Assembly (NCBI RefSeq): GCF_023702065.1
Contig: NZ_QFDM01000002.1
Coordinates: forward strand, 558,001-622,000
Source: Methanoculleus oceani
Lineage (GTDB): Archaea; Halobacteriota; Methanomicrobia; Methanomicrobiales; Methanoculleaceae
Direction: 5' to 3'
DNA length: 64,000 bases
Part shown: positions 51,856 through 57,253 of the stretch, in pieces
Numbering within the stretch: the first letter of the stretch is position 1
How the letters are laid out: each line of letters starts with the position of its first letter
The notes under the pieces: model-generated
What the model was told of the DNA's origin: nothing
Databases searched by the model: none
Seen by the model: the letters and a program-made list of their open reading frames with translations, nothing else
Translations under genes and position numbers: made by a program

Positions 51856-52175
51856 GAGGCGGCCGCCCGGGCCTTATCGGCACCGTAGCCCGTACTGCAG
51901 TGGTCGCGGGAACGGCCACCGCTACTTCCCACGCTGTCAATAAGCGGATACAGCAGAAAGAGATGCAGAAAGCAACGCAAGCGCAGCAGGCGGCACCATA
52001 CGAAGAGCAGGTGCAGGCGGCGTCATACGAGGAGCAGGTGCAGGCGCCTGCCGGAACAGGCATAACCCAGGAGGAGAAGATGGCTCAACTCAGGGAACTC
52101 GCCGAGTTGAAGCAGATGGGCGCCCTGACGGAGGAAGAGTTCCAGCAGGAGAAGCAGAAGATCCTTGCTCAGTAG
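51852..52175 (+). CDS. SHOCT-domain protein
   Basis: 107 residues from the ATG overlapping the previous stop. A short hydrophobic N-terminus (GLIGTVARTAVVAGTATATSHAV) precedes a Gln-rich segment with an 11-residue repeat (PYEEQVQAA/SYEEQVQAP) and a C-terminal SHOCT module (MAQLRELAELKQMGALTEEEFQQEKQKIL). SHOCT domains are small oligomerisation modules on regulatory or membrane-linked proteins. Confidence 0.9.
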   Translation: MRGGRPGLIGTVARTAVVAGTATATSHAVNKRIQQKEMQKATQAQQAAPYEEQVQAASYEEQVQAPAGTGITQEEKMAQLRELAELKQMGALTEEEFQQEKQKILAQ

Positions 52176-54150: not shown

Positions 54151-54855
54151 TTAGTCCAACTGCTCCCGGATCTGCAACCGATACCATTCGATGATCTTCT
54201 GGATGGTATCATAACCCGTCCCCCTCAGGCGATACGACACCGCAGACTGGCTGGTGCCGATCCGGTCCCCGATCTCCTTCTGCGTGAGCCCCTCGAGTGT
54301 CAGCATCACGGCTTCGGCCTGTCTCTTCGTATAGCCGTCGATCATCCTGTCCAGAACGTCGCAGAAGATCGACAGCGTCGTGTTGAAGTCCTCCCAGGGG
54401 GTTGTTACGATGATACCGCGCCCGGCTTTCTTCATGGCATCCAGTTCGAGGCCGGAGAGCCGGAATGCCTCGCCGTCCCCCTCTCCGGCCAAACCGTCCC
54501 CCGGCAGGTAGCGGACGGTTCCAATCCCGACCGCGATTCGTGCATCCAGCCGGAGAGCGCTGTTGTCGCGATCGAACCCGGCGATGAACTTGAGGCGCAG
54601 GAGGACCGCATCTTTGAGCGCCTCCCCGGGGTTTGAAGAGACGCCCTGAAAACTGTCTCCGCGGAATATCGAGAACGGCGCTACGTAGTCTTTCCCGATC
54701 TCCGCCAGCGTCTCCTTCAGGCGGCGCATGCACTCTTCACCGTATGCGTTTTTGATCTCCCGGGAACGGACCAGATCCCCCGTGAGGACCGCGTAAACTC
54801 TTCTCTCCGTCATGGCGCCATCGTCGCCTTCTCTGCATGGTTCCTTGTCGGCCAT
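54151..54855 (-). CDS. SatD-family protein with C-terminal sigma-4-like HTH
   Basis: 234 residues from ATG 54855 (MTERRVYAVLTGDL at 54813 is a credible alternative). The N-terminal part (YAVLTGDLVRSREI, YVAPFSIFRGDSFQG, ARIAVGIGTVRYLPG) matches the SatD family; the C-terminal 60 residues (KRQAEAVMLTLEGLTQKEIGDRIGTSQSAVSYRLRGTGYDTI) form a helix-turn-helix. In bacteria SatD is next to DUF3307 genes, as here. Three repeats spaced by 29 bp lie just upstream of its start, suggesting autoregulation. Confidence 0.82.
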   Translation of the reverse strand: MADKEPCREGDDGAMTERRVYAVLTGDLVRSREIKNAYGEECMRRLKETLAEIGKDYVAPFSIFRGDSFQGVSSNPGEALKDAVLLRLKFIAGFDRDNSALRLDARIAVGIGTVRYLPGDGLAGEGDGEAFRLSGLELDAMKKAGRGIIVTTPWEDFNTTLSIFCDVLDRMIDGYTKRQAEAVMLTLEGLTQKEIGDRIGTSQSAVSYRLRGTGYDTIQKIIEWYRLQIREQLD

Positions 54856-54872
54856 CAGATATGAAGATATCT

Positions 54873-54937
54873 ACTCATAATAAGAAATTATCAGTATATT
54901 AACTCATACATTACCAGAATGAGCAATTATACTCATA
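54873..54937. promoter_or_regulatory. Three ACTCATA repeats at exact 29-bp intervals (iteron-like operator)
   Basis: ACTCATA occurs at 54873-54879, 54902-54908 and 54931-54937, each embedded in WACTCATAHA. Intervals are exactly 29 bp twice. An inverted repeat AGATAT-GAAG-ATATCT (54858-54873) overlaps the first copy. The cluster is in the 157-bp gap upstream of the SatD gene, suited to binding of several regulator molecules on one face region of the DNA. Confidence 0.65.
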
Positions 54938-55012
54938 CAAGATCCGTATTCATAGTCCGGGCATGCACCCCCGGCAACCCCACGATTGAGATTGGAGCCG
55001 GAGGGTCCAGGT

Positions 55013-55876
55013 CTAAAGTTTTGACAGGTACTGGACGAACTGCTCGATCCCGCCCTGGCACACCAGGTAACCGACGGCCGCCCCGATAAGGACCGCGATC
55101 GCGAAGCTCACCATCGTTCCCACGATGATGTACTCGGATCGCTTCGCGTCGTTGATCCTGAAAAGCCCTTTTGCTGCTATGAGGAACCCGATAGCCGTGT
55201 ACTCGTTCACCAGGATAAACGTCACGATCAGGACCCGCTCGACGTATCCGATCAAACGGCCGGCATGATCCAATCCATCCTCTTCCGAAGCGGCTATATC
55301 TTTCCGCCAGGACCGGGTTACGCTCCCGACCAGGATCCCGCCGGGCCGGAGGACCAGGAGATACGCGACGATGACGACCCAGATCCGGATAACCCCGCCC
55401 GGGCTGTCGGACGGATAGGGGACCGGAGTCTGTGAAAGCAGCGCCAGAACGATGAAGAGAACGGCCAGGTGGGCGATAAAAAGCCACCCTACAGGTTCAG
55501 GCATTGCGCCCTCATCATCCGGATCTCGCACGCGGGCCGTCCTCTTTCGAAGGCTCGCTATCAGGTCGGGCAGTACGCCGTCGATGACGAAATGCGCTGC
55601 CGTAACAAGGACAAAGGCGTACAGGAGGGTGCTCCGGAACTGAGGAAGGAACTCCGGGAGTGACGACGGATCTCTCAGAACAAACATGACGTTCCAGAGA
55701 TTGACAAAGAGAAACGTCAGTAAACCGGCTGCGAAGGCATGGCAAACCAGGTGCCCGGAGCGCCAGCTGTTCCCGGACCGATCCTTTGCCGGAAATGCGG
55801 GCCGGAGAACGAACTCCACCAGCAAGTACGCGAGAAAGATGCGAAGGAACAGTTCGATGCCGTGGGAGATTTCCAT
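55013..55876 (-). CDS. DUF3307 membrane protein, partner of SatD
   Basis: The start MEISHGIELFLRIF (55876) gives 287 residues; the longer open frame to 55948 lacks support. Six to eight hydrophobic segments; GHLVCHAFAAGLLTFLF and HFVIDGVLPDLIASLRKR are the DUF3307 core with the conserved His and Asp. The C-terminal ERVLIVTFILVNEYTAIGFLIAAKGLFRINDAKRSEYIIVGTMVSF is typical. The gene lies upstream of the SatD-like regulator on the same strand, a pairing known from bacteria; function unproven. Confidence 0.82.
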   Translation of the reverse strand: MEISHGIELFLRIFLAYLLVEFVLRPAFPAKDRSGNSWRSGHLVCHAFAAGLLTFLFVNLWNVMFVLRDPSSLPEFLPQFRSTLLYAFVLVTAAHFVIDGVLPDLIASLRKRTARVRDPDDEGAMPEPVGWLFIAHLAVLFIVLALLSQTPVPYPSDSPGGVIRIWVVIVAYLLVLRPGGILVGSVTRSWRKDIAASEEDGLDHAGRLIGYVERVLIVTFILVNEYTAIGFLIAAKGLFRINDAKRSEYIIVGTMVSFAIAVLIGAAVGYLVCQGGIEQFVQYLSKL

Positions 55877-56161
55877 TGGAGACAGGTAACTATTCTTCTG
55901 AACTCCTACATTACTTCTCCTATTTGCTCTGAAGGGAGACCGACTCATTTAAGAGATTATTGTGATTGAAACTCCCGGGAAATCCATTCATCCGGAATAC
56001 TCATCCAGGGGAAGGCTACCCATCATGAGGGGCGCGCCGGAAAGGGCTCGTCACTCCCGGAGAGTGCCGGGGACCTTATGGGTTTGGCGCTACGCACATT
56101 GTGCCTGCCAATCGAAAACGCAACTGAATTTCCACGAGGCCCCCAGAACCGCCCGCAGCCC

Positions 56162-57253
56162 TTACATCCCCACCGATTCCGCCACCCGCATCAGTTCGTC
56201 CCGGCCGAGCATGCCGCACGTGATCCGGTACGAGTAACCGCCAGCACTCCAGCGGAGCTGATCCCTCCCGTCGGCAGAGACATACCCGGCCTCCCGGCCC
56301 CCAGAGAGGGGCACCGATTCAGGCGTGCCGGGAAGGACTGCCTCCGCCCGGTACGGGTCATAGAGCCGCTGCACGAACTCCAGTTCGTCGCTGCCGTTCG
56401 TGAACCGGAGTGTGGTGTAGGCGCCGGGGAGATGCGTCCCATCCGCGAAGACGTACCCCTCCGGGAGGTAGGACGGCATCGCCGCACCATAGCGCCGGAC
56501 GTCGTCGGTGCTCCATAAAAAGAGCGGTGTGATCGCAGCCGTCGGCATCGGCCGGACCTCGACGCCTGTCGGTGGATCGAAGGCGAAGAGGTCGTCCGGG
56601 AGCCCGGTGTTCGCCGAGGGATCGGTGTATTCGGCAGAGAGGATCAGGTTCCCGTCTTTGCCATACATCTCCACGCTGAGAAGGAGCCAGGTTTCGGCGT
56701 CGATCCATGCCGTGAACCGGTGCACCGCCTCCCGGTAGCGGGTGGGCGCTTCAAAGAGTCTTGATCCGCCCGCAACCTCAAGGAGATAGGCGGTGCGCCC
56801 ACAGACAGTCTCGGTGCCCAGGTACGAGGCATTCCGCTCCGCAAGCGACTCCGCGACCGTCTCCATATACCCCCGGACCCCCTCCGCCCAGCCGGGGTAC
56901 TGCGGCTCGGAGAAGGCGGCTTTCATATACGGCCCCGCGACCGTCAGCGCCGTCCGGGTTACCGGGTCGTAGCGCCACTTCCGGGTGCCGTTCGAGACGA
57001 CGATGGTTCCCGCGAGGTCCGCGGGTTCGAGGTATTCCAGCCGGTAGTTCTCGGGGCCTTTCCGGAGCAGCCTGACGGTGACGTTCTCGGAACCGGCCGT
57101 TATCGCTACGGTGGCGGAGAAGTCCGTCGCCTGCTCTTCCGCGGCGACGAACCGGGCGGCGATCTCGTCCGCCGGCGGCGGATCCGCGGCGGTGCCGAGG
57201 CACCCGGCGGTGCAGGCGAGGGCGAGGAGGAGCGCGATTGCTAAATACTTCAT
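56162..57253 (-). CDS. LolA-like lipoprotein with DUF4367-type domain
   Basis: 363 residues. A lipobox (CTAGCLG) shows lipidation. Residues about 25-235 follow the outer-membrane-lipoprotein-sorting/LolA fold (ATDFSATVAITAGSENVTVRLLRKGPENYRLEYLEPADLAGTIVVSNG, DDLFAFDPPTGVEV); residues about 260-360 match DUF4367 (RRYGAAMPSYLPEGYVFADGTHLPG, YSYRITCGMLGRDELMRVAESV). Such archaeal proteins are surface lipoproteins of unknown role. ATG overlaps the stop of the preceding membrane gene by four bases. Confidence 0.83.
   Translation of the reverse strand: MKYLAIALLLALACTAGCLGTAADPPPADEIAARFVAAEEQATDFSATVAITAGSENVTVRLLRKGPENYRLEYLEPADLAGTIVVSNGTRKWRYDPVTRTALTVAGPYMKAAFSEPQYPGWAEGVRGYMETVAESLAERNASYLGTETVCGRTAYLLEVAGGSRLFEAPTRYREAVHRFTAWIDAETWLLLSVEMYGKDGNLILSAEYTDPSANTGLPDDLFAFDPPTGVEVRPMPTAAITPLFLWSTDDVRRYGAAMPSYLPEGYVFADGTHLPGAYTTLRFTNGSDELEFVQRLYDPYRAEAVLPGTPESVPLSGGREAGYVSADGRDQLRWSAGGYSYRITCGMLGRDELMRVAESVGM

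Follow-up and report, generated by a model that had tools for sequence, protein, structure and literature searches.

The AT-rich gap in front of the satD-like gene of Methanoculleus oceani carries the 7-mer ACTCATA at positions 54873, 54902 and 54931 of the forward strand, separated by two exact steps of 29 bp, and the question raised by this locus is what so regular an arrangement is for. Positions are those of the window, by which we mean the whole 64,000-nucleotide stretch of DNA analysed. An earlier sequence-only reading had recorded the three identical 7-mers with their two identical steps, the AT-rich setting before a gene for a helix-turn-helix-containing SatD-like protein and an adjoining DUF3307-like gene, and all of this is borne out. 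On its own the 7-mer is not rare, with 4 occurrences in the window vs 2.87 expected. Only two 7-mers in the window, ACTCATA and GCAGGCG, are present in three copies evenly stepped by 15–60 bp; the three copies of GCAGGCG, at 27-bp steps (window position 51986), are situated inside predicted coding sequence.

In each case ACTCATA forms the right-hand arm of a 20-bp imperfect dyad, TATGAGT-N6-ACTCATA, and what had been seen previously were half-units. The features referred to below are as follows.

54860..54879, no strand: dyad 1, nearest satD, TATGAAGATATCTACTCATA, with 2 mismatches to TATGAGT-N6-ACTCATA
54889..54908, no strand: dyad 2, TATCAGTATATTAACTCATA, with 1 mismatch to TATGAGT-N6-ACTCATA
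54918..54937, no strand: dyad 3, AATGAGCAATTATACTCATA, with 2 mismatches to TATGAGT-N6-ACTCATA
54151..54813, minus strand: satD-like gene, probable start at 54813, open reading frame open to 54855
54394..54813, minus strand: SatD residues 1–140, cyclase/GGDEF-type palm with Asp13 and Asp53, from model, fold and profile matches
54181..54330, minus strand: SatD residues 162–211, sigma70-region-4-like helix-turn-helix
54232..54234, minus strand: codon of residue 194 (Tyr), which shows the strongest covariation with arm positions 4–6
55013..55876, minus strand: gene for a DUF3307-like membrane protein, upstream of the array here and downstream of satD in most other lineages

When the window is scanned for three dyads at a spacing of 29 bp the array ranks first with a score of 57.0, followed by an overlapping neighbour (41.8), and the best unrelated place scores 36.9. 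The dyads occupy the AT-rich gap 5' of the minus-strand satD-like gene, and the array ends about 46 bp from the satD Met codon, both here and in relatives; we take the start to be 54813 more likely than 54855 because seven of nine other full-length family matches have a TGA between the two. As the array is downstream of the DUF3307 gene and upstream of satD, it can control satD but not obviously DUF3307, and the three-dyad scan reveals no second array before the DUF3307 gene in the window. A scan of positions 54700–56200 for promoters and terminators found none with the bacterial-type models used, the host being an archaeon.

We propose that this stretch is the operator array of satD, bound by dimers of SatD and most likely shutting off the gene's own transcript, and on the sequence comparisons that follow we consider this very likely. 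Within the family, satD is matched in 12 of 40 genomes. Ten of the matches are full-length; L011, a remnant of 53 residues, and L012, a weak match, were left out of the dyad comparison. All ten full-length orthologues are preceded by dyads at exactly 29-bp steps, two of them in L009, four in L005 and L010, and three in the other seven. In L011, from a genome of the same genus (G027), only the 53-residue C-terminal satD piece aligns and no array was found, and it is apparently a lost copy.

The sequence-only reading had suggested looking for the repeat before satD in relatives, and the outcome is positive across archaea and bacteria once the repeat is taken as a dyad array. The averaged motif-free autocorrelation of the 240–260 bases upstream of satD peaks at lag 29, in nine loci of the family and 26 from other archaea as well as in 80 named archaeal and bacterial loci. 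These named loci are the best 80 of 261 candidates retrieved with the peptide pattern [FY]xIxRGDSFQ, so that conservation of that motif among them is by construction, and L047–L054 largely duplicate genomes of the family set. With dyad spacings of 22–40 bp scanned, 57 of the 80 loci score best at 29 (20/29 in archaea and 37/51 in bacteria), the mean dyad score being 41.8 at 29 vs 27.8–30.1 at other spacings. As controls we took, for each of the same loci, the AT-richest of eight randomly drawn windows (mean AT 0.63 vs 0.68), not all of them upstream regions; these are flat at 27.7–29.3 with no peak, and 29 is best in 4 of 80.

A profile search yielded 69 further Bacteroidota loci, and these show a second register, the best spacing being 28 in 36 loci and 29 in 18 (mean scores of 42.1 and 34.7 respectively, vs 28.2–30.2 elsewhere). 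Over 170 satD loci, a set purged only of near-exact protein repeats (177 reduced to 170) in which close relatives remain, the best three-dyad spacing in the range 22–40 bp is 29 in 89 and 28 in 38, together 127. A stricter cut at the 99th percentile of scores at other spacings (37.9, the highest such score being 48.4), with roughly 3 chance passes expected among the 170 when two spacings are allowed, leaves a three-dyad array in 108 loci, 72 at 29 and 36 at 28. In the palm of the protein, alignment column 124 is Leu with a spacing of 29 in 69 loci and Phe with 28 in 30 (n=108), and may mark a clade or a packing surface.

Several observations count against an operator. A spacing other than 28 or 29 is preferred in 43 of the 170 loci, and 62 have no three-dyad array above the cut; 18 of the latter have a two-dyad array at 29, and among the other 44 are nine that share a recognition helix of another sequence, SRQA[IV]GDSL. 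In several Bacteroidales with Lys194 (e.g. L068–L070, L076, L083, L088 and L090) the dyad scan found no array, and upstream of satD in L039 and L100 (Methanogenium, apparently one genome) an 18-bp tandem repeat replaces the 29-bp array. Another Methanogenium locus, L104, has a lag of 47 in addition to 29. Among 13 loci from a plasmid collection, L201, L204, L205, L207 and L209 are without a clear array in the 20-bp format and a Segatella plasmid locus (L200) has a weak array at 28. Dyads of the form AACC...GGTT and of odd length, which fall outside the design of the dyad scan, are present in L209 and L201.

Throughout, it is the dyad form and the 28/29-bp register that are conserved, and not the letters ACTCATA. 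The arms drift by clade, from TATGAG in the genus of the window to TATAAG in Methanosarcina-like archaea, Brocadia and Salegentibacter, and to TATAAC, TATCGG, TATTAC and more in other clades. This drift follows residue 194 of the SatD recognition helix. Position 6 of the arm is C in 18 of 19 loci with Lys or Arg at residue 194 vs 2 of 89 with other residues; with Tyr194 there is G at position 4 in 10 of 12 loci, with Gln194 the arm is TATAAG in 32 of 43, and with Glu194 it is TATCGG or TATCTG in 10 of 12. The two-dyad Lys loci L095, L105, L117 and L131 also have C at position 6, as, by eye, do five plasmid Lys loci (Salinivibrio, Vibrio, Natronosalvus, Pseudoalteromonas and Agrobacterium), and two haloarchaeal Glu loci have, again by eye, CG at positions 4–5. 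By mutual information with arm positions 4–6, residue 194 is clearly the first of 198 columns (2.05 vs 1.35). For a phylogenetic-pair test we used 54 disjoint nearest pairs from a tree built without the recognition helix: pairs with the same residue 194 have the same arm in 26 cases and a different arm in 12, and those with different residues have the same arm in 1 and a different arm in 15 (p 2.3e-5 over the 54 pairs). In this test residue 194 is the first of 190 columns only narrowly, and shared ancestry contributes, since the runner-up columns are close (p 5.0e-5 and 1.4e-4). Because the arms follow recognition-helix residue 194, SatD itself is very probably the binder of the dyads. The earlier suggestion of a SatD operator thus gains support from the satD-wide array and from this covariation, with the correction that the particular letters are not what is conserved.

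The array is also confined to the satD locus in the genomes tested. Allowing up to 2 mismatches to TATGAGT-N6-ACTCATA, the only sites in the 2.46-Mb genome are the three dyads of the window, and at up to 3 mismatches there are 17 further sites, a total of 20 vs 30 for a reversed-pattern control. A strict tandem pattern of TATAAG-type dyads finds matches in 12 of 13 other genomes, with 0 control matches, and every match falls in a satD-DUF3307 locus (coordinates compared by hand), either upstream of satD or as a second site just before DUF3307 (L063 and L067); the pattern is narrow, and weaker targets elsewhere could escape it. The second sites in L063 and L067 consist of an extra dyad pair just 5' of DUF3307, and in L084 the dyad pair is present twice, 144 bp apart.

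A plausible model is that a SatD dimer would sit on each 20-bp dyad through its C-terminal sigma70-region-4-like helix-turn-helix, with the two recognition helices reading arm positions 4–6 on both sides, about 11 bp or one helical turn apart. Dimers would line up, perhaps cooperatively, on two or more dyads with the protein setting the register at 29 bp, or 28 in some lineages. Such constancy of the register, exactly 29 (or 28) bp over arms of changing sequence, implies that SatD forms a defined higher-order assembly on DNA, and as 29 bp is about 2.8 turns, successive dimers would be rotated, suggesting a helical assembly. Bound SatD would then most likely silence the transcript of its own gene, DUF3307 being part of that transcript in most lineages, and a nucleotide ligand of the palm may modulate the silencing.

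SatD might instead bind the array and activate its own transcription, which we consider unlikely. With the array ending some 46 bp before the Met codon, both in the window and in relatives, an activator could also be placed there. Against activation, of the 54 Bacteroidota loci that have 28 or 29 as their best spacing, 20 carry a last dyad ending 4–6 bp from the aligned SatD start (the start codons behind this figure were not fixed one by one), a position better suited to blocking transcription than to recruitment. A different regulator, encoded by the host and controlling satD through the dyads, is a rather improbable alternative. Sequence alone cannot tell which protein occupies them, but arrays of this 28/29-bp design stand before satD in archaea as well as in several phyla of bacteria, their arms track the satD recognition helix, and in the genomes tested none was found away from the satD locus. 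The description of the repeats as iteron-like is not supported. Even spacing and the presence of satD-DUF3307 on plasmids would suit a role in replication or partition, as iterons or a centromere-like array, but the units before satD are dyads, unlike the direct repeats that accompany an initiator gene, the scanned neighbours include no recognised gene for initiation or partition, and the array accompanies satD on large chromosomal contigs of unrelated organisms, all of which makes such a role very improbable. A chance repeat, as the expected frequency of the 7-mer and the AT-rich spacer might suggest, can be dismissed given the exact register in 10/10 family loci and the sharp peaks at 29 and 28 elsewhere with flat controls.

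Turning to the putative repressor itself, the window protein scores 24.5 bits against the Pfam SatD family (PF16264), below the gathering cut-off of 29, and is therefore called SatD-like. Its relative L101, found from the window-led alignment (tblastn E 7e-34), scores 37.0 bits, above the cut-off, and 76 of the 80 members of set A3 match SatD at E <= 0.1. The structural model (pLDDT 91.2) contains a class III cyclase/GGDEF-type palm, with VIA Z scores of 11.3 to 5mbg (rmsd 4.1, 154 aligned) and to 4zvg (rmsd 2.6, 131 aligned) and 11.2 to GTP cyclohydrolase III (2qv6); several GGDEF entries score the same as 5mbg. The best Foldseek match has an E of 2.2e-5, and the best PDB match by sequence profile is the cyclase 3mr7 (E 1.1e-4). 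Asp13 and Asp53, which align with the cyclase Asp residues, are kept in 69 of 69 proteins of a set not selected on that motif. Residues 118 and 122, matched by eye to the helix carrying the transition-state Asn and Arg, vary, and the canonical transition-state residues of class III cyclases look absent, again by eye. A diguanylate cyclase of the GGDEF type was considered and rejected, as the GG(D/E)EF signature is absent and the SatD hairpin reads RGDSF. It seems likelier that the palm senses or otherwise uses a nucleotide than that it makes a cyclic mononucleotide. Searches of PHROGs give helix-turn-helix matches for SatD, and PADLOC gives weak matches only, those of SatD being mainly over the helix-turn-helix half (e.g. 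L109 to a CARF model, E 0.00045). In L055 and L108 SatD extends into a long C-terminal part that is TPR-repeat-like by eye.

The neighbouring protein of the window scores 22.0 bits to DUF3307 (PF11750), below the cut-off of 23, and all 66 members of set A4 match DUF3307 at E <= 0.05, with L109 scoring 85.3. Its model (pLDDT 89) is a multi-helix membrane protein with no clear fold match (best Foldseek E 0.42, best VIA Z 6.6). The PADLOC 2TM effector model matches it weakly (E 0.063), and two homologues match phrog_2470, 'membrane protein', in PHROGs. A conserved His/Asp of DUF3307 is, we presume, a possible membrane-hydrolase feature. A DUF3307-like gene lies beside satD in 74 of the 80 named loci. 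It is downstream on the same strand in 67 of these, overlapping in 28, within 35 nt in 25, at 36–200 nt in 13 and further away in one, and upstream in seven Methanoculleus-like loci. In two genomes of the same order (G412 and G319) DUF3307 is divergent from satD with the array between the two genes. Across 392 genomes of the phylum, in counts worked out by hand from listings, a strong SatD match (E < 1e-10) is present in 33, of which 30 have a DUF3307 match. Near full-length DUF3307 is present in 28 genomes, 23 of them with strong SatD; a near full-length copy adjoins a weak SatD match in G313 and G361, and has no SatD match beside it in G056, G352 and G397. In genomes such as G341 (C173:2370-2714, beside SatD at 1681-2277) many DUF3307 matches cover the C-terminal half only, as short open frames of ~120 residues adjoining SatD, which suggests that a compact version of the partner exists in some genomes.

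The gene pair is also found on plasmids. The mobilizable plasmid pEC34A (L201, NC_019077.1, 3,770 bp) carries a SatD-like gene followed by DUF3307 as its only evident cargo, and Klebsiella records of the same size exist. On a Sphingomonas insulae plasmid (L205, 1701-5654) the two genes have an annotated Pycsar effector and an adenylate/guanylate cyclase as immediate neighbours, and in Pseudomonas fragi and Agrobacterium plasmid satD-DUF3307 is near toxin-antitoxin genes. Phage records contain no match to SatD or DUF3307 of L101.

In the open-access literature consulted we found no description of a SatD operator, and nothing joining SatD with DUF3307, or SatD with a cyclase and a helix-turn-helix. 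Autoregulatory tandem operators are a known kind; what is unusual here is the span of both domains, the fixed register and the readable code. Comparisons across both prokaryotic domains give a family known mainly by name a domain architecture, a likely target on DNA and a recognition code that can be tested.

More tentatively, and at somewhat less than even likelihood, SatD and DUF3307 may constitute an undescribed mobile guard module shared by archaea and bacteria, similar to toxin-antitoxin systems or Panoptes, in which the sensor is its own transcription factor. SatD would repress the operon through the phased array and restrain DUF3307, directly or through a nucleotide, and loss or inhibition of SatD, for example by a virus, would both raise and release the effector. 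The partner co-occurrence, the plasmid and defence neighbours and a report on satD in S. pyogenes keep this suggestion at that strength; PADLOC and the phage records lend it no support.

Among known systems, the autoregulated toxin-antitoxin operons of the AbiE type, as far as the available text describes them (PMC7319586), resemble satD in having several inverted repeats before the regulator gene. As in toxin-antitoxin operons, the regulator gene is usually first and the partner second (67/74 loci, reversed in the window's group), and the pair occurs on plasmids and near defence or toxin-antitoxin genes. Unlike AbiE-type operons, SatD has a cyclase/GGDEF-type palm, its DUF3307 partner is a membrane protein, and the 28/29-bp register of its array stays fixed in archaea and bacteria alike. 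Panoptes, in the accessible portions of two reports (PMC12657218, PMC12657230), consists of mCpol (OptS) and 2TM-beta (OptE), the toxic effector being released once the product of the palm enzyme is lost. SatD-DUF3307 likewise comprises two genes, for a palm-type nucleotide protein and a membrane protein, but SatD has in addition a DNA-binding helix-turn-helix and an operator array, and DUF3307 is larger than the Panoptes effector, multi-helix and without a clear fold match. SatD shares the palm fold and the two metal-binding Asp residues with class III nucleotidyl cyclases, including Pycsar PycC (7r65), and differs from them in its fused helix-turn-helix and in that the canonical transition-state residues are not recognised by eye. 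SatD of the S. mutans sat operon belongs to the same named family, a comparison made by description from the text available (PMC11323703, PMC10326533), from which the window protein departs in its score below the cut-off. In S. pyogenes, according to the accessible part of one report (PMC11323703), satD is accessory (178/249 genomes) yet essential. A guard role would offer a possible answer to this puzzle, such behaviour being what one expects of a regulator that keeps a harmful partner under control.
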